Below are positions 3,839 through 40,617 of a DNA stretch of 48,634 nucleotides, in pieces (position 1 is the first letter of the stretch; the number at the start of each line of letters is the position of its first letter). Source of the stretch: a virus. The stretch is taken from positions 1-48,634 of IMG/VR virus record IMGVR_UViG_3300030099_001480; one strand, written 5' to 3'. The position numbers were made by a program, and so were the translations under genes. Below the pieces are notes generated by a model that worked only from the letters and a program-made list of their open reading frames with translations, had not been told where the DNA came from and ran no database searches.

Positions 3839-5715
3839 TGCCGCTTACAAAGCTACAGTTTAACCCCGGCGTTAATAGAGAGGTTACCTCATATTCTAAT
3901 GAGGGCGGGTGGCGCGACTGCGATAAAATTAGGTTTAGGATGGGCTACCCAGAAAAGATGGGTGGCTGGGAGAAGTACGCATCCTCCACATATCTAGGCT
4001 CTGCCCGTGCGCTTCATAACTGGATTGCTCTTGATGGATCTAACTATTTGGGCATAGGAACGCACTTAAAATATTACATCGAAGAGGGCCAGTCTCTAAA
4101 CGACGTAACCCCTATAAGAAACACGACCTCAGCAGGAGATGTTACTTTTGCGGCAAGCAACGGTAGCACAACCATAACTGTAACAGACTCATCTCATGGT
4201 GCCTTTGAGAATGATTTTGTTACATTTTCTGGAGCAGCTTCTCTTGGTGGGGCGATAACGGCTGATGTTCTCAACAAAGAGTATCAGGTTGTTTCTGTCA
4301 CAGACGCTAACACTTTCACGATAACAGCATCAGTAGCAGCCAATAGCTCTGATACGGGCAACGGTGGAAGCAGCACCGTAGGGGCATATCAAATCAATGT
4401 TGGCTTGGACGCTGTTGTTGGGGGAACTGGCTGGGGCGCAGGCACATGGGGCCGTGGTGGATGGGGTTCGGCAGAGCCTAATGGTCTAACAACAACAAAT
4501 GAGATCAGGCTTTGGTCGCATGACAACTTTGGCGAAGATTTAATTATCAACCCAAGAGACGGAGGCATCTTCTATTGGGACAGATCGAACAACCTCTCCA
4601 CAAGGGCTATAGAGCTTTCTACCCTGTCAGGGACAAAGACCAGCGTTCCTACAATAGCTAAACAGGTTCTTGTCTCCGATCAAGACAGGCACGTCATCGT
4701 GTTCGGTTGTGATGACATCGGTGGAAACTCATCAGCGACACAGGGTAACGGCACCCAAGATCCGCTTTTGATAAGGTTTTCTGATCAAGAAAACCCTATA
4801 GATTACTTCCCGACTAGCACAAATACGGCTGGAAGCCTGCGTCTAGGATCAGGGTCTAAGTTTGTTCAGGCAGTAGAAACAAAGAGGGAGGTTCTGATAT
4901 GGACGGACACATCCCTGTTTTCGATGAGGTTCATAGGCCCTCCGTTTACGTTTGGCCTACAACAGCTTTCATCCAACATAACAATCATGGGTCCAAACGC
5001 TGCTACGGCCACAGAGGACGTGGTTTATTGGATGGGCATAGACAACTTTTATAGATACGCCGGTCAGACCGAGCAGCTTGAATGTACAGTGAAAGAGAAG
5101 GTGTTCTCTGATTTCAACCTTGCCCAGTCATCTAAGGTTGTTTCTGGTATCAACTCTGAGTTCTCTGAGATATTCTGGTTCTACCCATCTGCCAGCGCAT
5201 CAGATAACGACAAGTATGTAGTCTATAATTATGGTCAAAACATCTGGTACTTTGGTGATCTTTCAAGAACAGCTTGGCTGGACAGAGGTACAAGATCGTT
5301 CCCGATAGCCGCTGGCGGTCAGTATTTATACAATCACGAGCTTGGCTACGATGATGACGGCAGCGCGATGAACTCGTTTATTGAGTCCGCTGCCATGGAC
5401 ATCGGTGATGGCAATAAGTTTACCTACATAAGCAGGGTAATACCTGATCTTAGTTTTACAGGCTCTACACAGTTGAGCAGCCCGCAAGCCACATTTACTG
5501 TAAAATCCAGAAACTTTCCCGGTGCGAGCTTTGACAACACCGCGTCTGGCGTAGCAACTCGTACCGCATCATCCCCTGTTGAGCTTTACACTAATCAGTT
5601 GTTTTTACGCTCTAGGGGCAGATCGTTTGTCATACGGGTAGAGTCTTCGGCACTTGGCGCTAAATGGCAGCTTGGAAGCCCAAGGGTTGACTCTAGAGAG
5701 GACGGTAGAAGGTAA
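3838..5715 (+). CDS. P22 gp10-like tail / DNA-stabilisation protein (625 aa)
   Basis: The N-terminus (LQFNPGVNREVTSYSNEGGWRDCDKIRF) and the beta-rich body with repeated 'W..DGS.YL.IGT' segments resemble the P22 tail hub protein gp10 (Phage_stabilise family). In P22 that protein plugs the portal channel and joins the tail machine after packaging. The length is compatible, although this member is longer than P22 gp10. A Thr/Ser-rich insertion lies at about 100-180. It overlaps its neighbours by one base on each side. It would act with the tail adaptor encoded at 47930-48607. Confidence 0.65.
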   Translation: MPLTKLQFNPGVNREVTSYSNEGGWRDCDKIRFRMGYPEKMGGWEKYASSTYLGSARALHNWIALDGSNYLGIGTHLKYYIEEGQSLNDVTPIRNTTSAGDVTFAASNGSTTITVTDSSHGAFENDFVTFSGAASLGGAITADVLNKEYQVVSVTDANTFTITASVAANSSDTGNGGSSTVGAYQINVGLDAVVGGTGWGAGTWGRGGWGSAEPNGLTTTNEIRLWSHDNFGEDLIINPRDGGIFYWDRSNNLSTRAIELSTLSGTKTSVPTIAKQVLVSDQDRHVIVFGCDDIGGNSSATQGNGTQDPLLIRFSDQENPIDYFPTSTNTAGSLRLGSGSKFVQAVETKREVLIWTDTSLFSMRFIGPPFTFGLQQLSSNITIMGPNAATATEDVVYWMGIDNFYRYAGQTEQLECTVKEKVFSDFNLAQSSKVVSGINSEFSEIFWFYPSASASDNDKYVVYNYGQNIWYFGDLSRTAWLDRGTRSFPIAAGGQYLYNHELGYDDDGSAMNSFIESAAMDIGDGNKFTYISRVIPDLSFTGSTQLSSPQATFTVKSRNFPGASFDNTASGVATRTASSPVELYTNQLFLRSRGRSFVIRVESSALGAKWQLGSPRVDSREDGRR

Positions 5716-7238: not shown

Positions 7239-8345
7239 ATGGCTTTACCACTGATATTAGGACTAGGCGGCTCTGCACTAGCTGGCGCAACGGGCGCTAA
7301 CGCCCTTCTCTATGGCGCTCTTGGCTCCGGTTTGGGGTCATTGTTGCAAGGTGATGACCTTGGCACAGCGATTGGCACGGGCATAATGTCATATTTCGGC
7401 GGTAAGGCTCTTGGCGGCATGTTTGGTGGCGGTGCAGATAAGCTAGCCACAGCAGATCCGTTCACAGGATCACTTCCTTCCGCAACAGGCCAAAGTGGTA
7501 CTGTTGCGACCATGGCTCCTTCGGGTGTGCAAACTGCGGCTGGTAAGGCGGGGTCATTTGGCCAGCAGTTGGCTCGTCAAACAACCATGCCCTCTGTCTC
7601 TTCAGTCGCCCCAGCGGCCACAACATCAGGCGGCACATTTACTGATTTCTTTAAGTCTCCTGCTGGAGCTAACATCCAAAGCACTGGCCTTGCTGGCCTC
7701 AAAGAGGCTGCAACTAACCCATATGCTTTGAGTGCGGTTGGCACGACAGGCCTTCTTGAGGGGATGAAGCCACAGGGTATAGATAAACCTGAAGATGCCC
7801 CTGACATACCAGAGGCAGAAGCTGCAAAGCGTAAGAGACGCCCGATACCGCTAGATTATGAACCCGGTAAAGATCCAGAGTTTGATTATTTTGAGCCATT
7901 TGCAAAGGGTGGTGAGGTGCAGAAGCCAAACGACAAAGAGATCATCAGCAATGCTGTTGACGCTATTAAGGGCAAAAGTCCAGACCCAGAGGTGGCCTTG
8001 GCCATGTTTGTCTCGACATATGGTGAAGAGGCTCTCAGAGATTTGGTTGGTCGTGTTCGCAGCGGCGAGTTTGACGACAATGCACAGGTTACAGAGGGCA
8101 TGGTAGAGGGTGTCGGTGACGGCATGGATGATATGATCCCCGCCACCCTTGAAGGAGAGCAAGATGTTGTCCTATCTGATGGAGAGTTTATCGTACCGGC
8201 TGACGTTGTTAGTGGGCTGGGCAACGGATCGACTGACGCTGGCGCGAAATCCCTCTATGAGATGATGGACAGGGTCAGAGAGATGCGTACAGGTATGACA
8301 GAGCAGCCTGATCAGGTGCCACAGGGTATGATGCTACCGGCATGA
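7239..8345 (+). CDS. Internal virion / structural protein, Gly-rich N-terminus (368 aa)
   Basis: Residues 1-65 are a Gly/Ala-rich hydrophobic segment, possibly membrane-inserting on ejection. A low-complexity linker follows. The C-terminal part (about 250-360) carries the acidic motif EGMVEGVGDGMDDMIPATL and then SDGEFIVPADVVSGLGNGS. I recognise this combination from virion proteins of marine podoviruses and cyanophages, where its function is unknown. It starts 4 bases after the endolysin stop with an AGAGGG site, and overlaps the next gene by 4 bases. Confidence 0.55.
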   Translation: MALPLILGLGGSALAGATGANALLYGALGSGLGSLLQGDDLGTAIGTGIMSYFGGKALGGMFGGGADKLATADPFTGSLPSATGQSGTVATMAPSGVQTAAGKAGSFGQQLARQTTMPSVSSVAPAATTSGGTFTDFFKSPAGANIQSTGLAGLKEAATNPYALSAVGTTGLLEGMKPQGIDKPEDAPDIPEAEAAKRKRRPIPLDYEPGKDPEFDYFEPFAKGGEVQKPNDKEIISNAVDAIKGKSPDPEVALAMFVSTYGEEALRDLVGRVRSGEFDDNAQVTEGMVEGVGDGMDDMIPATLEGEQDVVLSDGEFIVPADVVSGLGNGSTDAGAKSLYEMMDRVREMRTGMTEQPDQVPQGMMLPA

Positions 8346-30094: not shown

Positions 30095-31240
30095 TCAGTC
30101 TCCCATTTTCAGAATGGCAACCTCACCCCAAGGGGCTTTGTCGGAGCCAATGTCGGTTGATACCCAAAGCACCGGATAGTCCGGCTTGTCGGGGAAGTCG
30201 GTGATCTCCAAGTCAGTCAGGACCACCATGTTGTCACAAGGCAACTGATGCTCATCGACATAGTTGAAAGCCGGTGTGACGCGAGTGCCGCCCCTGCCGG
30301 ACAGTCCAACCTTTTCGATGACCTCGCCTTGCTCATACCGCTTCACAGTCTGCACCTTGGTGTCGAAGGTGATGACCGTGACAGAGTTGGGCTTGTGTTC
30401 ATCACTGATGGCGTTGATCTCACCAAGGAAGTGGGACCATTCATCATCAGTCACAGAGGCTGAACTGTCGCCAAGGATGATGATGTCACCGGCACCCATG
30501 CGGTCAACGCTGGGCAGATAGATGCCCTGATTGAACCATGCGTTCTTCTGGGGCCGACGCCATGTGTAGTCGTCAGGCTGGTCACCACCGATGAAACGAT
30601 GCAGAACATCACGCCAGTCAACCTGTGAGCGGCGCATGACCTGCACAAGCTGATCGATGGCAGCAGGAAGGTTGCCGCGAGACTTGGCAGCATCAGCGGC
30701 CATGATGACCTTGATGTCCATCTCAGCCTCAACCTGTTGGGTCTCAGCCTCGGACATCTCGCTGCCGTCCTCACCCTGCATGGGTATGACCTCACCCCAT
30801 GCTGGGCCATCTTCTGGCACATCATCGTCAGGCATCTCGGCGTAAATCTTCTCAGCAGCCCAGCCCTTGAACTTGTTCCACTCAGGCTTGCTGGTGCTGA
30901 ACAGGCCTTGCTCAGGGATAGAGAAGCCACTGTCGATCAGGATATCGTTGATGGCGATATCGGTGCAGACGTTCCACTTTTTGTGGACGCGCTTGCCCAT
31001 ACGCAGCATGTGCTTGAAGACAACGTGCAGCACCTCATGCGCGATCACGCCCATGACATGGTCCTTGTCCAAGCTGTCAACGAAGGCACGGTTCCAGAGA
31101 ATGGACCGGCCATCTGTCGCCATAGTCGGAACCTTGTCAGTCTCGACAAAGTTGAGACCGGCAGCACATGAGCCGAAGAATGGATGCCGCAGCATCAGTT
31201 GCGTCTTGGCCTGTGCAACCTTGAGATTTGCATCAGTCAT
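30095..31240 (-). CDS. Metallopeptidase-like / VWA domain protein (DUF2201-type, 381 aa)
   Basis: The N-terminal half carries a zincin motif HEVLH (68-72) with a further His at 77, as in the DUF2201 'putative metallopeptidase' domain. The C-terminal half is a VWA domain with a MIDAS motif D258-S-S260-A-S262 (LGDSSASV). Bacterial relatives pair with MoxR-like AAA+ ATPases to remodel target proteins or complexes. The AAA+ gene lies directly upstream in the same operon. The phage target is unknown. Good GGGAG site. Confidence 0.8.
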   Translation of the reverse strand: MTDANLKVAQAKTQLMLRHPFFGSCAAGLNFVETDKVPTMATDGRSILWNRAFVDSLDKDHVMGVIAHEVLHVVFKHMLRMGKRVHKKWNVCTDIAINDILIDSGFSIPEQGLFSTSKPEWNKFKGWAAEKIYAEMPDDDVPEDGPAWGEVIPMQGEDGSEMSEAETQQVEAEMDIKVIMAADAAKSRGNLPAAIDQLVQVMRRSQVDWRDVLHRFIGGDQPDDYTWRRPQKNAWFNQGIYLPSVDRMGAGDIIILGDSSASVTDDEWSHFLGEINAISDEHKPNSVTVITFDTKVQTVKRYEQGEVIEKVGLSGRGGTRVTPAFNYVDEHQLPCDNMVVLTDLEITDFPDKPDYPVLWVSTDIGSDKAPWGEVAILKMGD

Positions 31241-31299: not shown

Positions 31300-32337
31300 T
31301 TAGGCTGCAAACAGATCAGCCCCACCGTTGATGATCCACTGCCGGACAGCCTCAGATTTCTTGATCTCAGGGTCACGAGTGACAGCGTCCTTGATGCAGA
31401 AGCCAGCGAACTCTTGCTGATCAAGCCGCTTGAGATAGCGGACGATGTTGCCAGCGTTGCCCTGCGTCATGCGATAGGCAAGGCCGGATGACATGGCATA
31501 GAGAACCATTGCATCCTGCGGCACCTCGGCACCGTCAGGGTTGCTGATGATGCCGTCTAGGTCAGGCATGTTGGCTTTCATCTTGCGGAAGCCGGTGAAG
31601 TCAGCCGTCGCAGGACGGCCAACCGTACCAGCGATAGCCTCGGCCTCTGCGACAGGCGACAGGCCCCATGACAGGATGGTGCTGACGCGATCCCATGAAC
31701 GGAAAGATGGGTTGGCGTTGGCGTCACGATCAAACTTGACGGCGAACTCAGGCCGTGCGCGGAGATATGCGGTAACGTCCTCATGCACACCGTTGGCCAC
31801 CATGTAGGCAATAGCGTCCTCAACGTCAGGGTCAATCTCCAAGAACATCAGGCAGTCCTTGAGATGCGACGGCATGTTGTTGGTGCCAGCCCGATCAGAC
31901 ATGCGGTTGCCAGCGGCGCAGATCACGACATTGTGCGGCAACTCAAACTCACCGACGCGCCATTCGTTGATAAGCTGACGCCCAACATTCATGTTGGCGA
32001 CAGGTGCCTGTGGCAACTCATCCAAGAAGAGGACAACCACCTCATAGCTGGCGGCCATCTCGTGTATGCGGCGAAGCCAGAATGGCATCACACGGTGAGC
32101 CTCACCGTCGATCAGCGCGATAATGCCGTTCACCTCGGCGGCATCCATCGATGCCAGCGAAAGGATGTACAGGCCCCAGTCACGCTCTGTCGTGATCTGT
32201 TGCACCATAGATGTCTTGCCGATACCCATAGTGGCCTCGGCATAAGGTATGGTCCGGTCAGCATCACGGCTTTCGCGGTTGGCGATCTGGCTGTCGAATG
32301 AAGCCTCGAAAATAGTCTTAGCAAGTGAAAGTTTCAT
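31300..32337 (-). CDS. MoxR-like AAA+ ATPase (345 aa)
   Basis: Walker A is EATMGIGKTS (34-43), Walker B LFLDELPQA (103-111), followed by an AAGNRMSDRAG sensor-1-like segment (about 137-147). The first Gly of Walker A is replaced by Ala. Organisation fits MoxR-type ATPases, which act with VWA proteins; the VWA gene follows in the operon. The pair may act as a chaperone or remodelling machine on a host or phage complex. Start follows TTTTGGGAGACGTTTCGTT. Confidence 0.8.
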   Translation of the reverse strand: MKLSLAKTIFEASFDSQIANRESRDADRTIPYAEATMGIGKTSMVQQITTERDWGLYILSLASMDAAEVNGIIALIDGEAHRVMPFWLRRIHEMAASYEVVVLFLDELPQAPVANMNVGRQLINEWRVGEFELPHNVVICAAGNRMSDRAGTNNMPSHLKDCLMFLEIDPDVEDAIAYMVANGVHEDVTAYLRARPEFAVKFDRDANANPSFRSWDRVSTILSWGLSPVAEAEAIAGTVGRPATADFTGFRKMKANMPDLDGIISNPDGAEVPQDAMVLYAMSSGLAYRMTQGNAGNIVRYLKRLDQQEFAGFCIKDAVTRDPEIKKSEAVRQWIINGGADLFAA

Positions 32338-32663: not shown

Positions 32664-33362
32664 TTATGCGGCGTCGATGGCATCCATGACAGCGTCGACG
32701 ACCTCGTTTTCTTCAGCAACCTTGGCCGCTTCCTCGGCTGCTGCCTTGTCGGCGGCGATACGCGCCGCCTTGTACTGGCGATATTCGTTGTCGAAATCGG
32801 CCCAGTCTGCCTCGTCAAACTTGCTGGCGTTGAAGCCGCCATCATGGTTGCGCTTGCCGAATAGACGCTGGGCCAGTGCTTCCATTTCACCGACATGCTT
32901 GCCCTGTTTCACATGCGCTGCCAGCTTGGCCTCGGATGTGATGCCAGCGTCAGAGAAGGCAGCCTTCACGCCATCAGCCGTCAGGTTGGATGCGTTCTTA
33001 TCCCACCCAAAGGCGACGATGGCCTTGATGGTGTTTTCATACCGCTTTTTCACGACGGCATCTTCAAAAGCGGCGTCTTTTCTCAGGGCGTCTTTGAAGT
33101 TGTCAATGGCAAGTTTGCCGCCAACCATCTTGCCCTTTTTGATTTCGCCAACACCTTCTACATCTTTGGTGGTGACGCGAACACCCACCGACACAGCGGC
33201 AGGGATAAGCTGGGCGTATTGCTCGACGACAAGGCCGTTGATGGCTTGAGTGTCAGCCTTTTTGTTGCCTTGAAGCGTGACAACCTGACCTTGCAGGTCA
33301 TGGACGGTTTCAAGAATGTTGTTGTCAGCGAATGGATCGACGTAAGTGTTTTTTGTAGGCAT
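32664..33362 (-). CDS. Unknown early protein, Lys/Ala-rich helical (232 aa)
   Basis: The start at 33362 follows TTTTCGGGAGACCTGAT. The N-terminal part has short strands and a possible coiled coil (ILETVHDLQGQVVTLQ). The middle is basic. The end is an Ala/Glu/Lys coiled coil (KAAAEEAAKVAEENEVVDAVMDAIDAA). It is probably abundant and oligomeric. No family is recognised. It lies between two UUCG-loop hairpins, hinting at independent control of its mRNA level. Confidence 0.65.
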   Translation of the reverse strand: MPTKNTYVDPFADNNILETVHDLQGQVVTLQGNKKADTQAINGLVVEQYAQLIPAAVSVGVRVTTKDVEGVGEIKKGKMVGGKLAIDNFKDALRKDAAFEDAVVKKRYENTIKAIVAFGWDKNASNLTADGVKAAFSDAGITSEAKLAAHVKQGKHVGEMEALAQRLFGKRNHDGGFNASKFDEADWADFDNEYRQYKAARIAADKAAAEEAAKVAEENEVVDAVMDAIDAA

Positions 33363-33451
33363 ATCAGGTCTCCCGAAAAGGTGTGTGTTTCGCCCATGCT
33401 TGGGCCAAGGCCGCACCATGCGGCTCATCAGTGCGCCAGCAACAGGCGCAG

Positions 33452-33476
33452 ACACAGGGGCCGAAGCCCCCAGTGT
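33452..33476 (-). other. Hairpin with UUCG loop between operon genes
   Basis: ACAC-A-GGGGC-CGAA-GCCCC-CA-GTGT on the plus strand gives GGGGC-TTCG-GCCCC in the leftward RNA. It overlaps the stop of the 133-aa gene. No T tract follows, so it may be a processing or stability hairpin. Confidence 0.7.
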
Positions 33477-33877
33477 TATGCGTCAGGCATCTTCAACTCT
33501 AAAATTTCAACGCCCTGTTCCTCGGCAATTTCCCTGACGATCTGGGTCTTGCCACAGGACATGTCAGGCTTGGGCATATATGGCAGCGTCTTGTAGCCAT
33601 GGTCAGCGGCAATTATACGATGCATCCGCTCGTGTGTTTCCAGCACATCATCGTGCTTCCACAGTGATTTCAGCTGGCAACGTCCATAGTGAGTGCCGAT
33701 ATGGACAGTCACCATTTTGCCCTCATAGTTTTCGATCATGTAGGCGACCATGCAGTCGGGCTGGGTGCAGAATGTCCAGCCGTCGCAGCGCAGCATGAAG
33801 CGCGGGTTGCCGTTGACGCTGTTATCCATGCGCTTGACGATTTCCAGAATGCCGGTGTGGCTTGTGACGTTTTTCAT
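33476..33877 (-). CDS. Unknown early protein (133 aa)
   Basis: Begins MKNVTSHTGILEIVKRMDNS. A beta-rich middle with cysteines (FMLRCDGWTFCTQPDCMVAYMI, HIGTHYGRCQLKS) may bind metal or form a small beta-barrel. The C-terminus contains PDMSCGKTQIVREIAEEQG, where GKT is probably not a true Walker A because the upstream Gly pattern is missing. AGGAGAT precedes the ATG. No family is recognised. Confidence 0.65.
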   Translation of the reverse strand: MKNVTSHTGILEIVKRMDNSVNGNPRFMLRCDGWTFCTQPDCMVAYMIENYEGKMVTVHIGTHYGRCQLKSLWKHDDVLETHERMHRIIAADHGYKTLPYMPKPDMSCGKTQIVREIAEEQGVEILELKMPDA

Positions 33878-33889
33878 GTTGGCAATCTC

Positions 33890-34123
33890 CTATTGACCAG
33901 ATTGAAAGTAGTAACCGGAAGCGTTCGACACGATGGCGTCATAGCGGTCAGAGGCGGCTTGCACCTCTGAGACATCGACCATGTAGGATTTGACCGTCAC
34001 CTTGTCGGCGAGGTAGCCGCAGTGGCGTTCACGCAGTGCCTTAGCAACGTCGGTTGCGCGGGCCAGTGAGCAGGTGACCTCGATCAAGTCGCAGTCAGCG
34101 AAAATGTAGAATTGCTCTTTCAT
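33890..34123 (-). CDS. First gene of the leftward early operon, unknown (77 aa)
   Basis: A small alpha/beta protein, MKEQFYIFADCDLIEVTCSL then ATDVAKALRERHCGYLADKV and ending in ASGYYFQSGQ. GGAGGTG lies directly upstream. It follows the long structured leader, so it should be the first protein made from the leftward promoter near 34450. Early first-in-operon phage proteins often target host functions, but nothing here identifies a target. Confidence 0.65.
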   Translation of the reverse strand: MKEQFYIFADCDLIEVTCSLARATDVAKALRERHCGYLADKVTVKSYMVDVSEVQAASDRYDAIVSNASGYYFQSGQ

Positions 34124-34165
34124 GTTACACCTCCAAGGTTGGTTGGTTGAAAAGGGTCAAATGAA

Positions 34166-34207
34166 TAGGGGCAGGGCGACAGTGCCGCCCAGCCCTAGAT
34201 TTTTTTT
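34166..34207 (+). terminator. Rightward intrinsic terminator with T8 tract
   Basis: TAGGG(G)C-A-GGGCG and CGCCC-A-GCCCTA form a long stem with one A-A mismatch around a 7-base loop, followed by GATTTTTTTT (T8 at 34200-34207). No rightward gene ends here, so it may stop antisense transcription. In leftward RNA the same stem would sit after an A8 stretch. Confidence 0.75.
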
Positions 34208-34210
34208 GGA

Positions 34211-34363
34211 ACCTCTCCGCAGGAACGGCATCGTGCCGCCGCCCTGCCAGACTTACGCCCCCGCCTACAAGCGCGGCCAGCCGGAGCCAGCCGCATCAGC
34301 GCATTGGGTGCTGCCCCGCGAAGCGGCGTAGTCCGAGCCTTCAGCCTCGCGGGTGGGAGAGGT
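34211..34363 (-). ncRNA. GC-rich structured leader or non-coding RNA
   Basis: The ends, ACCTCTCC (34211-34218) and GGAGAGGT (34356-34363), close a 153-base domain with a perfect 8-bp stem. Inside are non-overlapping helices: 34219-23/34243-47 enclosing 34226-30/34234-38, 34273-77/34290-94, 34297-300/34310-13, 34316-19/34323-26 (GAA loop) and 34334-37/34346-49. GC content is far above the surroundings. The candidate leftward promoter at 34447-34474 would place this in the 5' leader of the operon at 34123. The strand is uncertain because most helices fold on either. I match it to no Rfam family from memory. Confidence 0.55.
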
Positions 34364-34446
34364 GACACCGCCCCGCCACTCAGTGGGGTAGGTGAGCCAT
34401 GCATTTCACAGACATAGAGTTTTGGCGTACAGGGCCTGTAAGGGTG

Positions 34447-34474
34447 TTTATATACTAGTAAACGATTGAGACAA
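34447..34474 (-). promoter_or_regulatory. Leftward early promoter candidate
   Basis: On the minus strand TTGTCT (34469-34474), a 16-base spacer, then TATAAA (34447-34452). It would start a transcript running through the structured leader into the 33890-34123 gene. Confidence 0.45.
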
Positions 34475-34756
34475 CCCTTTTATTGCCATCTATGAACATT
34501 TTTTTTCATTTATTTTCATATATGGTCTGTAACGTAGGCTGGAAGCTAAAAACGCCTCTAGCACTTTTTTGGTAGTAAACCACCGGAAAACACCTGAAGG
34601 CGCTGTACGGGCCTCCTAGAGCGATTGAGGGCATATTGAGATTTTGGGGTGCGGGTAGGTTACCGGTAACTTTTCAGACGGTGCCGGATAGTCTAGGGTG
34701 ACCGACAGGTAAAACCGCGAAAGCACCCGCAGGGGCAAACTGGTAGGGGTAAGGTA
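34475..34756. other. Intergenic region between divergent operons
   Basis: No gene is seen here. An AT-rich stretch with T8 and CATTTATTTTCATATATGG (34498-34526) is followed by mixed sequence and one palindrome copy. Promoters for the small terminase gene are expected here but I cannot place one firmly. A replication origin is possible, with no direct evidence. Confidence 0.4.
34657..34674. repeat. Palindromic repeat, copy 10 (AGGTTAC-CG-GTAACTTT)
   Basis: A GTTAC-CG-GTAAC core with the TTTT tail on the right; the left AA is replaced by AG. It lies about 80 bases before the small terminase ATG. Confidence 0.75.
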
Positions 34757-35236
34757 ATGGGAAAGAATACAGGCAAGGGCAAGGGTGGCCATCTCAGGGT
34801 AGTGGGGAAGGTAGACAAGCTGACATCCAAGCAAGAGGCATTCGCCATGCAGGTGGCCAAGGGTGCAATGCTCAGTGAGGCGTATAGAGACTGCTATTCA
34901 GCCGACAGCATGCGAGACAGCACCATATGGTCAGAGGCATGCAAGCTGGCACAGAACCCCAAGGTTGCCACAAGGATTAAGGCCATACAGGCTGATATGG
35001 AGGCCAGTCAGCGCACGAGGGACCAAAGGTTGAGAGAACATGTTTTGAAACGGCTGATGGAAGAGGCCGACAATGCGGAGACTGATGGCGCTAGGGTCAG
35101 AAGTCTTGAGCTATTAGGCAAAACGGTTTCGATGTTCACCGACAGGATTGAACAGGCCGACGATGCGGAGCGGTCAGCATCCGATATCGAAGCGGACCTG
35201 CGCAAGCGGTTGGACCGGCTGCTCGGCGACGGCTGA
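34757..35236 (+). CDS. Terminase small subunit (159 aa)
   Basis: After a Gly/Lys-rich start, residues about 21-50 (KLTSKQEAFAMQVAKGAMLSEAYRDCYS) match the HTH region of small terminases ('LT.KQE.F...'). A long central helix (IKAIQADMEASQRTRDQRLREHVLKRLMEEAD) and a C-terminal coiled coil are consistent with ring oligomerisation. The protein binds the packaging site and recruits the large subunit. It is unusual in being separated from terL by a leftward gene and an AT-hook gene. TAAGG lies before the ATG. Confidence 0.78.
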   Translation: MGKNTGKGKGGHLRVVGKVDKLTSKQEAFAMQVAKGAMLSEAYRDCYSADSMRDSTIWSEACKLAQNPKVATRIKAIQADMEASQRTRDQRLREHVLKRLMEEADNAETDGARVRSLELLGKTVSMFTDRIEQADDAERSASDIEADLRKRLDRLLGDG

Positions 35237-36658: not shown

Positions 36659-38167
36659 ATGAACGATCTTGCTTTGATAAAAGCAAAGATAAACACCCTT
36701 CCTGTAGAAGATCAGAAAGAGATGCTCGACCTGATTGTCGAGTTGGAAGAAGCAAAAGATCGCGAAGAGTCGCGTGTTGATTTCCTGACATTCGTGAGAA
36801 AGATGTGGCCTGCTTTTATTGGTGGTCGGCACCATGAGATCATGGCAGATGCCTTTGAGCGTGTGGCAAACGGTGAACTGAAACGCCTGATTATCAACAT
36901 GCCACCCCGACACACCAAGTCGGAGTTCGCCTCATACCTGTTTCCGGCATGGTTTCTTGGCAGATACCCAGAGAAGAAGATCATTCAGACGGCACATACT
37001 GCCGAACTGGCAGTTGGTTTTGGCCGTAAGGTGAGGAACCTGATAGGTCAGGACGACTTCCAAAGCGTTTTCCCCGGCATCGAACTGTCTTCTGACTCCA
37101 AAGCAGCGGGAAGATGGAACACAAACAAGCGTGGTGACTACTTCGCTATCGGTGTTGGCGGTGCTGTTACGGGTAAAGGCGCGGATGTTCTGATTATTGA
37201 TGATCCGCACTCGGAGCAAGAGGCCGCATTAGGCGCTTACAACGCGGAAGTCTACGAGAAAACCTACGAATGGTACACATCTGGCCCCCGACAGCGACTT
37301 CAGCCGGGGGGAGCCATCATCATTGTGATGACAAGGTGGTCCACAAGGGACTTGACAGGCAAAATCATCAAGTCTGTCACCCAAAAAGAGGGCGTTGACG
37401 AGTGGGAAGTCATAGAACTCCCCGCAATCATGCCGTCTGGCCAGCCTTTGTGGCCTGAATTTTGGCCGATTGACCAGCTTGAGTCCCTAAAAGCTGAACT
37501 TCCTGTCTCAAAGTGGTCTGCTCAGTACCAACAGAACCCAACTTCGGAAGAAGGTGCGCTGATAAAGCGAGAATGGTGGCAGGATTGGGACAGGCCGAAC
37601 CCGCCGCCATGTGAAGCCATCATTCAAAGCTGGGATACCGCGTTCTTGAAGACTCAAAGGGCTGACTACAGCGCCTGTACAACGTGGGGAGTCTTTTATC
37701 ACCCCGATGAGAACGGGGATTCGCAGCCAAATCTGATATTGCTGGACGCATACAAAGAAAAGCTGGAGTTTCCTGATCTCAAAAGGGCGGCATACGAAAA
37801 ATACTGGGAATACGAGCCGGATCAGATGATTGTCGAGGCGAAAGCAGCGGGATCTCCACTGATCTTTGAGCTTCGCGCTATGGGTATTCCGGTCACGGAG
37901 TTTACACCTTCGCGAGGTCAGGATAAGATAGCCCGTGTAAATGCGGTCAGTGACTTATTCGCTAGTGGTGTTATATGGTGTCCAGCGACTCGTTGGGCTG
38001 ATGAGGTTATCGAAGAGTGCGCCTCATTTCCATCTGGAGATCATGATGATTTGGTTGACTCCACCACTCAGGCACTGTTGAGATTCCGTCAAGGAGGCTG
38101 GATCAGAACGACCATGGATGAATGGGATGATGAGCCGACCTACAGAAGGCCGGTTGATTATTATTAA
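36659..38167 (+). CDS. terL: Terminase large subunit (502 aa)
   Basis: ATPase motor: Walker A MPPRHTKS (81-88) and Walker B VLIIDDPH (177-184). Nuclease domain: D326 in IIQSWDTAF, the VEAKAAG strand near 392, and the DHDDLVD cluster (461-467), as in RNase H-fold terminases. Length is typical. It cuts concatemers and pumps DNA through the portal. GGAGG lies 9 bases before the ATG. The portal gene follows after 11 bases. Confidence 0.95.
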   Translation: MNDLALIKAKINTLPVEDQKEMLDLIVELEEAKDREESRVDFLTFVRKMWPAFIGGRHHEIMADAFERVANGELKRLIINMPPRHTKSEFASYLFPAWFLGRYPEKKIIQTAHTAELAVGFGRKVRNLIGQDDFQSVFPGIELSSDSKAAGRWNTNKRGDYFAIGVGGAVTGKGADVLIIDDPHSEQEAALGAYNAEVYEKTYEWYTSGPRQRLQPGGAIIIVMTRWSTRDLTGKIIKSVTQKEGVDEWEVIELPAIMPSGQPLWPEFWPIDQLESLKAELPVSKWSAQYQQNPTSEEGALIKREWWQDWDRPNPPPCEAIIQSWDTAFLKTQRADYSACTTWGVFYHPDENGDSQPNLILLDAYKEKLEFPDLKRAAYEKYWEYEPDQMIVEAKAAGSPLIFELRAMGIPVTEFTPSRGQDKIARVNAVSDLFASGVIWCPATRWADEVIEECASFPSGDHDDLVDSTTQALLRFRQGGWIRTTMDEWDDEPTYRRPVDYY

Positions 38168-38178
38168 GGGGATTTGAA

Positions 38179-40617
38179 ATGGCAGTCGAAAAGCAAATGA
38201 CACCATCCGATGTCGAGGCTGAGGGTACAGAGGCTGTCGAGGTTGAGATTGTTAACCCCGAAGCGGTCTCCATATCCGACAGTGACGGCGCGATGGTCAT
38301 AGACTTCTCCGGAGACATGGTCGATGAGATCATGGGACCAGAGCATGATGCCAATCTCGCCGAATACATGGATGACGCAGATCTTGAGTCTCTTGCATCC
38401 GAATTGGTTACAGACTTTGAAAGCGACAAGCAATCTCGCCGTGATTGGGCAAGAAGCTACACACGCGGACTTGATCTCCTTGGAATGAAAATTGAAGAGC
38501 GCACCCAGCCTTGGCAAGGTGCTGCTGGCGTGTTTCACCCCCTTCTCACAGAAGCTGTTGTTCGTTTCCAAGCTCAAGCAATGGGAGAGCTATTCCCCGC
38601 CTCTGGTCCTGTACGCACCAAGATCGTAGGCCGCAAAGACGCGGACAAGGCAGAGCAGGCGCAGCGTGTCGAAGAGGAGATGAACTATCTCCTGACAGAG
38701 AAGATGACAGAGTACAGGGATGAGACAGAGCAGATGCTCTTCCGCCTTCCTCTGGCTGGTTCTGCTTTCAAAAAGGTTTACTATGATCCGCTGATGGAGC
38801 GCCCCGCTGCCATGTTTGTTCCGGCAGAGGACTTCGTTGTCTCTTATGGCGCATCTGATCTCGCCACATGCCCCCGATACACTCATGTGATGAAGAAGAA
38901 CGCGAATGAGATTGTTGAGCTTCAGGTCAACGGTTTCTATCGGGATGTAGAATTGCCAGACCCAGAGCCAGACTATTCTGACATTCAAGAGAAGTATGAT
39001 GAGATCGAAGGCGAAAGCGCAGTTATAGAAGATGATGACCGCTACACAATCCTTGAGGCACATGTCGATCTGAACATGCCTGAGCCGTTTGATGATCCAG
39101 ATGGCATCGCTCGTCCGTATGTTGTTACACTAGACAAATCTTCAAAGATCGTCCTGTCAGTGAGAAGGAACTGGTATGAGGGAGATCCTAAGAAACGTAA
39201 GAGACAACACTTCGTACATTATCGGTACTTACCGGGCCTCGGGTTTTATGGAACGGGCCTTATTCATCTTATTGGCGGTCTTGCTAAGAGCGCCACTTCT
39301 ATTCTTCGTCAGCTTATTGATGCTGGCACTCTATCAAATCTCCCAGCTGGCCTCAAAGCTAGGGGTCTTCGCATTAAGGGTGATGATTCTCCTCTCATGC
39401 CGGGTGAGTTCCGCGATGTGGACGTACCGGGTGGTGCAATTCGGGATTCTATTGCATTCCTTCCTTACAAGGAGCCGTCATCGGTACTCTATCAACTTCT
39501 TGGAAACATCGTCGAAGAGGGGCGCAGGGTTGGCTCCGTTGCGGATGTACAAGTTGGAAACCTCAATCCACAAGCGCCAGTAGGCACAACTCTCGCTTTG
39601 ATGGAGCGCAGCATGAAAGTGATGTCTGGTGTTCAGGCCAGACTGCATGCCGCCCTCAAACGAGAGCTTGGTTTGCTGGCCATAGTCATCAAGGACTACA
39701 TGCCTTCAGAGTATGCCTACGAAATGGATGGTGAGTTTGACCGCCGCAAAGACTTTGATGACCGTGTTGATGTTGTTCCGGTATCTGATCCAAACGCGGC
39801 AACCATGTCACAGCGCGTGGTTCAGTATCAGGCGGCACTTCAGTTGGCGCAGCAGGCACCAAACCTGTACGACATGGGCAAGCTGCACAGGCAGATGCTA
39901 GAGGTTCTGGGCATCAAGGATGCTGACGAGATTATCAAGCTGCCTGATGACATCAAGCCAGCAGATCCGGTCACAGAGAACATGGCCATCCTCAAGCAGG
40001 AGCCGGTCAAGGCGTTTAAGTATCAAGACCATGAGGCCCACATTCAGGTTCACTTGGCTGCGGCGCAAGATCCAAAGCTGCAAGAGATCATCGGGCAAAG
40101 CCCATTCGCTGGGGCGATCCAAGCTGCTATGGCGGCTCATGTTACAGAGCATGTGGCGTTCCAGTATCGTAAAGAGATTGAGAAGAATCTCGGTGTGGGC
40201 ATGCCAGATGAAGATAAGCCTCTGCCGGAAGACATTGAGATTGAGGTCTCTCGCCTTGCATCTGAGGCGGCTGCAAAGCTGTTGAAGAAGGATCAGGCAG
40301 AGATGGCGCAAGAAGAGGCTATGAAAAAACAGCAAGATCCGCTCACACAAATCCAGCAGCGTGAACTGGCGCTGAAGGAAGCGGAGTTTGAGCATAAGAA
40401 GCAACTTGATATTGCTAAATTGCAGTCAGACGCTCAGGCCAAGGCTGCGAATGTTGAGGTGCAGAAAGATCGTATCGAGTCTGAAGAGAAGCGCGAGGGC
40501 GCAAGGCTCGGTGTTCAAATCGCCCAAGACGCAGAGAATATCCGTCGAGAGGACATTAGGGACGGGATAGAGCTTGGGCGTGAAATAGCAAGGGAGATAG
40601 TGGAACAAAATGAATGA
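38179..40617 (+). CDS. Portal protein, P22-like (812 aa)
   Basis: RDWARSYTRGLDLLGMKIEERTQPWQGAAG and then HPLLTEAVVRFQAQAMGELFPASGPV are typical of marine podovirus and P22-type portals. A long C-terminal coiled coil (about 680-800, many Gln/Lys/Glu) would form the internal barrel. Twelve copies build the DNA entry channel. The gene lies directly after terL and overlaps the next small gene by 8 bases. Length is somewhat above P22 gp1. Confidence 0.88.
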   Translation: MAVEKQMTPSDVEAEGTEAVEVEIVNPEAVSISDSDGAMVIDFSGDMVDEIMGPEHDANLAEYMDDADLESLASELVTDFESDKQSRRDWARSYTRGLDLLGMKIEERTQPWQGAAGVFHPLLTEAVVRFQAQAMGELFPASGPVRTKIVGRKDADKAEQAQRVEEEMNYLLTEKMTEYRDETEQMLFRLPLAGSAFKKVYYDPLMERPAAMFVPAEDFVVSYGASDLATCPRYTHVMKKNANEIVELQVNGFYRDVELPDPEPDYSDIQEKYDEIEGESAVIEDDDRYTILEAHVDLNMPEPFDDPDGIARPYVVTLDKSSKIVLSVRRNWYEGDPKKRKRQHFVHYRYLPGLGFYGTGLIHLIGGLAKSATSILRQLIDAGTLSNLPAGLKARGLRIKGDDSPLMPGEFRDVDVPGGAIRDSIAFLPYKEPSSVLYQLLGNIVEEGRRVGSVADVQVGNLNPQAPVGTTLALMERSMKVMSGVQARLHAALKRELGLLAIVIKDYMPSEYAYEMDGEFDRRKDFDDRVDVVPVSDPNAATMSQRVVQYQAALQLAQQAPNLYDMGKLHRQMLEVLGIKDADEIIKLPDDIKPADPVTENMAILKQEPVKAFKYQDHEAHIQVHLAAAQDPKLQEIIGQSPFAGAIQAAMAAHVTEHVAFQYRKEIEKNLGVGMPDEDKPLPEDIEIEVSRLASEAAAKLLKKDQAEMAQEEAMKKQQDPLTQIQQRELALKEAEFEHKKQLDIAKLQSDAQAKAANVEVQKDRIESEEKREGARLGVQIAQDAENIRREDIRDGIELGREIAREIVEQNE

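Follow-up and report, generated by a model that had tools for sequence, protein, structure and literature searches.

On comparative sequence evidence, positions 34208–34440 of the window, a marine phage record of 48,634 bases (an IMG/VR virus record), are a structured leader RNA on the minus strand that heads the leftward early operon. Its fold is conserved among relatives, it matches no Rfam family, and in relatives a type III hammerhead sequence sits directly at its 3′ end. The reading that we favor, with a probability of roughly 0.55, is that the leader is severed from the leftward early mRNA as a separate RNA and, once freed, acts in trans.

Layout of the region and sampling of relatives

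Rightward genes lie to the right of 34757 and the leftward operon to the left of 34123, with the leader region between them. The elements discussed below are as follows.

38179–40617, rightward: portal
36659–38167, rightward: large terminase (TerL)
34757–35236, rightward: small terminase
34447–34474, minus: candidate early leftward promoter TTGTCT-N16-TATAAA, read directly, 9 of 12 consensus positions
34208–34440, minus: structured leader RNA (type A, model R1), running from where transcription is expected to start through the P1 domain
34371–34388, minus: conserved hairpin CCCC-ACUGAGUGGC-GGGG upstream of P1, from comparative pairs
34211–34363, minus: P1-closed domain with P2, P3 and P4 (four-way junction)
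34356–34363/34211–34218, minus: P1, an exact, perfect stem of 8 bp
34344–34353/34315–34324, minus: P2, from pair counts
34310–34313/34248–34252, minus: P3, from pair counts
34241–34247/34219–34226, minus: P4, from pair counts
34166–34210, minus: A8 tract and hairpin, where relatives carry a hammerhead; candidate rightward terminator (T8 on the plus strand)
33890–34123, minus: operon gene 1, an ORF of 77 aa without a family match
33476–33877, minus: operon gene 2, 133 aa, PHROG 20597, of unknown function
33382–33458, minus: type III hammerhead ribozyme between genes 2 and 3 (Rfam Hammerhead_3), predicted cut between 33451 and 33450
32664–33362, minus: operon gene 3, start codon about 20 bases past the hammerhead, no Pfam family

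Two neighboring segments deserve mention in their own right. The minus-strand gene at 30095–31240 is labeled an HNH endonuclease by PHROG and a DUF2201 metallopeptidase with a VWA-like domain by Pfam (E 5e-47); an ATPase gene (31300–32337) adjoins it, and we take a MoxR-VWA-like pair to be likelier than an HNH endonuclease. The non-coding stretch before the small terminase gene (34497–34757, GGTCTGTAACGTAGGCTGGAAGCTAAAAACGCC...) is 74–83% conserved in L007, L011, L014 and L017 and is possibly a rightward promoter, a leader or a packaging site.

Viral contigs were scanned with TerL, yielding 80 loci. A blastn search with the gap returned one identical contig (L002) and diverged matches in L043/L044 and L011; the L043/L044 gap is 72% identical over 235 bases, whereas the small terminase has only 46% amino-acid identity. 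Exact motif scans added L082–L091 and L110, and the ribozyme pattern added L136. In the isolated-phage collection, neither the window's region nor four other leader types had a DNA match; the nearest TerL sequences there are about 57% identical (phage 023Pt_psg01 and Pelagibacter phage HTVC027P) and stand in a different gene order. Plasmids yielded only chance matches to the region. A host copy of the leader was considered and rejected, the exact motif being absent from the genome contigs searched; the three TerL relatives among genome contigs, all metagenome-assembled and assigned to unrelated bacteria, indicate no host.

A conserved fold on the leftward strand

The contrast in composition noticed in the first-pass annotation is real (GC 0.65–0.67 in the leader region vs about 0.50–0.57 in neighboring genes), and the perfect 8-bp stem that it placed around 34211–34363 is exact. 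The 153-nt domain folds better on the minus strand (−84.9 kcal/mol, z −2.41; equalled by 2 of 200 shuffles) than on the plus strand (−70.6 kcal/mol, z −1.36; 18 of 200), and a 301-nt segment has a z of about −1.3 on both strands. Folding energy by itself is weak evidence for a structured RNA. Because the single-sequence energy is only modestly below that of shuffles, homologues were needed to decide the matter. At least six further helices had been proposed within the closing stem; several do appear in the minimum free-energy fold, but comparative support is limited to P2, P3, P4 and one hairpin outside the domain.

Type A occurs in seven distinct versions: those of the window (identical in L002, L087 and L088), L091, L110, the L084 group (L043, L044, L085 and L086), the L083 group (L011 and L090), L082 (near copy L089) and L136. 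Three of the seven are near-identical in the P1 domain. Covariation was assessed in five distinct sequences (window, L091, L084, L083 and L082) over a structure of 29 pairs. Here 143 of 144 pair cells are paired (99.3%), vs 40–54% in controls slid by 1–3 columns; double changes fall at 12 of the 29 pairs, vs 1–4 in the slid controls, and none of 500 shuffles comes up to this. RNAalifold recovers both P1 and P2 without being given a structure, together with P3 and more of P4, in a consensus of 45 pairs of which 20 have double changes. P1 reads ACCUCUCC/GGAGAGGU in the window, AACCUUCC/GGAAGGUU in L083, GACAACCC/GGGUUGUC in L082 and ACCCAGCC/GGCUGGGU in L136, which was held out of the set. The ten pairs of P2 include no broken cell, and the arm between the P3 strands ranges from about 10 to about 60 bases across versions. 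By eye, L136 also has a counterpart of the hairpin upstream of P1, CCUCAC-GGAGUG-GUGAGG. The covariation among homologues that the first-pass annotation had named as a check is thus present, and with it the structured leader or non-coding RNA that it had placed before the leftward operon.

Strand is set by the same alignment. Conserved G-U pairs in P2 and P3 fit the leftward strand only, since the other strand would give A-C, and the leader RNA is therefore transcribed leftward; an antisense pair, as once suggested, does not agree with these pairs.

A covariance model of the five sequences finds the held-out L136 at E 3e-24 despite its different P1 sequence, and L110 at E 4e-28, a match not independent of the window. 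The window, itself one of the model's five sequences, matches at 34209–34432 on the minus strand (E 1.4e-61). Nothing else was significant in 48 sources, and 32 more returned only copies of known members. L111 and L112 were set aside as chance pattern hits in other sequence, the sole R1 match between them being one of 9.1 bits (E 0.52) in L112. L110 (2129–2345) has the window's P1 domain and hairpin joined to a different 5′ part and a longer P2 arm, so the leader seems to be built of exchangeable halves.

Two ORFs cross the region (34195–34404 on the minus strand and 34122–34331 on the plus strand), neither with a Pfam or PHROG family match, and no reading frame across the leader is kept among relatives. 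Translation of the segment, which would have told against the first-pass annotation, finds no sign here, and a coding gene was rejected on these two grounds. No tRNA or tmRNA was found in the window or in 16 loci. The 5′ part of the leader in L084 and L091 includes a T-arm-like element, GGUUCGAA/GGUUCUAG (GGUUCGAACCCCGGC / GGUUCUAGCCCCGGC); because the window, L083 and L082 leaders lack it, it is not a required feature of the leader.

A hammerhead ribozyme behind the leader in relatives

In relatives, the 50–70 bases between the RNA and the first gene are a type III hammerhead. Its elements follow in the order stem III (CCUGU/ACAGG), a cut site after GUC, stem I, UGANGA, a short stem II and GAAA, and the 3′ strand of stem III runs into the ribosome-binding site. 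Directly 3′ of the type A RNA stands a hammerhead in four of the seven versions (L083 group, L084 group, L136 and L082, the last with a different but canonical hammerhead in the same position) and a hairpin in the other three (window, L091 and L110).

The ribozyme fold is conserved in its own right. Among 13 canonical leader copies, 99.5% of 207 cells pair, vs 32–49% in slid controls, and stem I has double changes at five of its seven pairs. The contact between loop I and loop II can form in 30 of 33 distinct sequences, counting one G-U (G-C 16, C-G 8, A-U 3, U-A 2 and U-G 1); two of the remainder are mismatched and one is not applicable. Ten relatives with upstream DNA read were chosen by TerL regardless of ribozyme presence, and the hammerhead occurs in eight of them (L007, L011, L014, L038, L040, L044, L051 and L052) and is absent from L041 and L074. 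A joint alignment of all hammerheads was set aside on account of mixed lengths.

A pattern scan located 60 hammerhead places, 44 of them with distinct upstream sequence, and an ATG follows within 30 nt of the leader hammerhead in 34 of the 44. At least eight of the 44 follow a protein gene and a GC hairpin and have no structured leader (clusters 2 and 6); in L119, L120, L123, L132, L140 and L143, and in L115 and L127, the hammerhead comes after an apparent protein-gene end and a GC-rich hairpin. More distant relatives have one to three hammerhead-like motifs each, in the leftward sense (L059 at 7723–7774 and 3881–3932, L063 at 5028–5079 and two more places, L065 and L056); of these, model R2 recovered only L063 5029 and L059 7724.

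The canonical C directly before UGANGA (C3) is present in 18 of 33 distinct leader hammerheads. The other 15 carry an extra base or bases, as in L083 (11775–11823). In many of these copies the pair that closes stem I is G-U as well, so that the core varies naturally, and similar insertions near C3 in saltern hammerheads go with slow cutting (PMC3088659). In L014 (4152–4220) and L136 (7294–7361), a whole extra hairpin is inserted between stem I and the UGANGA core. From their sequence, we infer that the leader ribozymes cut the transcript.

Candidate promoter, end hairpin and second hammerhead in the window

A start of the leader transcript near 34440 is suggested by the promoter candidate. The hexamers lie at 34447–34474, as had been reported, but they do not rise above shuffled background: neither the window nor its relatives are enriched for such sites over shuffles, a 9-of-12 site occurring in 9 of 46 upstream stretches vs 19% of shuffles. 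The L102 and L093 leaders are also preceded by similar hexamers, and those of L095 and L098 by looser ones. Use of the candidate would be consistent with its position, beyond which the statistics give it no support.

Model R2 finds no hammerhead at the window's leader end (34123 to 34211). Its place is taken by the A8 tract and hairpin at 34166–34210, which folds to −21.6 kcal/mol on the minus strand (z −4.1) and −19.6 kcal/mol on the plus strand (z −2.8). A T8 tract follows the GC hairpin on the plus strand, at 34200–34207, as in an intrinsic terminator. The rightward terminator first proposed here is accordingly present in its parts and plausible, although the terminator scan, by its own rule, does not list it. 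The element is common to the window, L091 and L110; the L041 version has a different inner stem, and by eye the L041 leader resembles type C. Behind the hairpin, the leftward U-tract is weak (UUCAUUUG). Because there is no ribozyme at the leader end in the window, release of the leader there would rest on this hairpin.

The window does contain a hammerhead farther along the operon. The sequence at 33382–33458 scores 35.0 bits against Rfam Hammerhead_3 (RF00008; E 2.2e-6 in the stretch and 1.6e-7 for the whole record), below the gathering cut-off of 48.5 bits, and no match was obtained in 14 control genomes. It has the Hammerhead_3 architecture, with three stems, an open stem III and a CUGANGA plus GAAA core, and self-cleavage after its GUC is predicted. 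Model R2 finds it at 33384–33456, along with one chance-level match elsewhere in the window. Six relatives (L007, L011, L044, L093, L097 and L105) have this same second hammerhead, 554–994 nt past the leader hammerhead.

One slot, several RNAs

By sequence clustering, the position ahead of the leader hammerhead is occupied by five or more unrelated RNAs, single cases not counted. Next to the window's type A are types B, C, D and E, with 4, 15, 7 and 4 distinct members, respectively. Types B–E are treated as unrelated to A because the type A model does not find them. Type C has a consensus fold of its own, with 27 pairs, 9 of them with double changes. RNA type does not track relatedness of the phage backbone: type B is found in L007, whose large terminase matches the window's at 97% identity (80% for the DNA ahead of the small terminase gene), whereas L044 (86%) has type A. 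From this distribution, the slot RNAs look like cassettes that are exchanged.

Comparison with known RNAs

No leader RNA match to the 4227 models of Rfam 15 was obtained at gathering score in the window or in 24 related loci, as the first-pass annotation, which could name no family, had anticipated. The only Rfam matches at these loci are elsewhere, to Mu-gpT-DE RNA (RF03012; L011 17679–17731 and L040 17750–17802), which is not in the window, and a low-threshold search of 34100–34770 gave two chance matches (E 1.2 and 2.3). Weinberg and colleagues (2010) reportedly described conserved RNAs with several helices and no assigned function, part of them from phage and metagenome DNA; the leader RNA differs in having no match among the Rfam 15 models. 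The put RNA of phage HK022 resembles it in being structured and in opening an early phage transcript. The put RNA is much shorter, consisting of two hairpins with no known ribozyme behind, and it binds RNA polymerase, causing read-through of later terminators.

The leader RNA itself is no hammerhead. The ribozymes resemble Hammerhead_3: the window copy has three stems, CUGAUGA, GAAA, a GUC site and complementarity between loops I and II, and the relatives' leader ribozymes share this plan with a covarying loop-loop contact. They depart from it in an extra hairpin in stem II of the window copy and, in the leader copies, a very short stem II and the insertion or change at C3 in 15 of 33. All Rfam hammerhead matches are below gathering score, the cut-off being exceeded in none of 20 records.

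Multiple hammerheads flanking genes in prophages, with loop-loop pseudoknots, have been described (Perreault et al. 2011, PMC3088659). In the portion of that work drawn on here, several hammerheads per transcript flank single genes or short blocks, as in the present phages, and core insertions near C3 are reported as seen only in salterns; no structured RNA family upstream of a ribozyme is described there, whereas in the IMG/VR relatives of the present phage the copies with insertions come after a structured leader that is swappable. The same portion suggests a processing role for phage hammerheads, by which long transcripts become mRNAs of gene length, and another study calls the role of prokaryotic and phage hammerheads an open question (PMC6155905). 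In the open-licence literature, no description was found of the leader RNA, of the alternatives sharing its slot or of a hammerhead at its end. Hammerheads flanking phage genes are thus already known; the leader RNA and the swappable arrangement of RNA plus ribozyme appear to be new.

Proposed release and function of the leader

In the favored reading, RNA polymerase would start near 34440 and at once make a folded RNA of ~230 nt, comprising a 5′ part with the conserved hairpin and then the 8-bp helix that closes the four-way junction. In relatives, the type III hammerhead directly behind would cut the transcript, freeing the structured RNA and leaving an mRNA that starts with a ribozyme remnant and a ribosome-binding site. 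In the window, the hairpin that replaces the ribozyme may end part of the transcripts (attenuation), and the second hammerhead would cut between genes 2 and 3. We hypothesize that the freed RNA acts in trans on a host or phage target. Transcription and cutting are read from sequence features. The trans-acting small RNA suggested at first thus becomes plausible as a small RNA, given the relatives' hammerhead exactly at its 3′ end, its action in trans being conjectural.

A cis role, as an antitermination or mRNA-end element, is less probable. As a control element of its own transcript, the leader might bring about put-like read-through of later terminators by RNA polymerase, the window's hairpin included, with the hammerhead merely trimming the mRNA. 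The start of an early operon is the usual place of cis antitermination RNAs; the leader lies directly after the promoter candidate, and a terminator-like hairpin comes next in the window, L091, L110 and L041. Such control is nevertheless unlikely, in that a cut directly behind the RNA in most relatives would remove it from the transcript and several unrelated folds occupy the same slot. We consider it quite improbable that leader and ribozyme only shape mRNA ends (5′-OH, stability and translation), the leader having no role after the cut. In most cases the ribosome-binding site comes right next to the ribozyme, the six relatives with a second copy have one or two genes between their tandem hammerheads, and the same arrangement is read in this way in PMC3088659, but a precise fold with double changes over ~230 nt of upstream RNA would be left unexplained.

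A riboswitch, an early suggestion in which the P1 domain would be the aptamer and the hairpin at 34166–34210 the expression platform, fits the succession of a multi-helix junction and a terminator-like hairpin. It is very unlikely: close relatives swap the hairpin for a ribozyme and the domain for unrelated structured RNAs in the same slot, no Rfam riboswitch matches, and a fold of 34140–34440 gives separate helices, with no domain helix seen sharing bases with the hairpin. Chance folding of GC-rich intergenic DNA, or a short gene, is scarcely tenable, for although the single-sequence z is only −1.3 to −2.4, the pair counts contradict it, as do the match of held-out L136, the frames not kept and the lack of any protein family.

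The favored reading places hammerheads in a fixed position where the product of a cut is obvious, with a conserved RNA to one side and the ribosome-binding site of the first gene to the other, and this placement makes the question of hammerhead role testable. More tentatively, and with the odds against it, the early transcript may hold a slot for interchangeable structured RNAs, freed by hammerheads or ended by hairpins, that are delivered early during infection, act in trans against host functions such as defence and pass between phages like cargo genes. A slot filled by unrelated RNAs would be a new way for phages to vary early functions by RNA rather than by protein.
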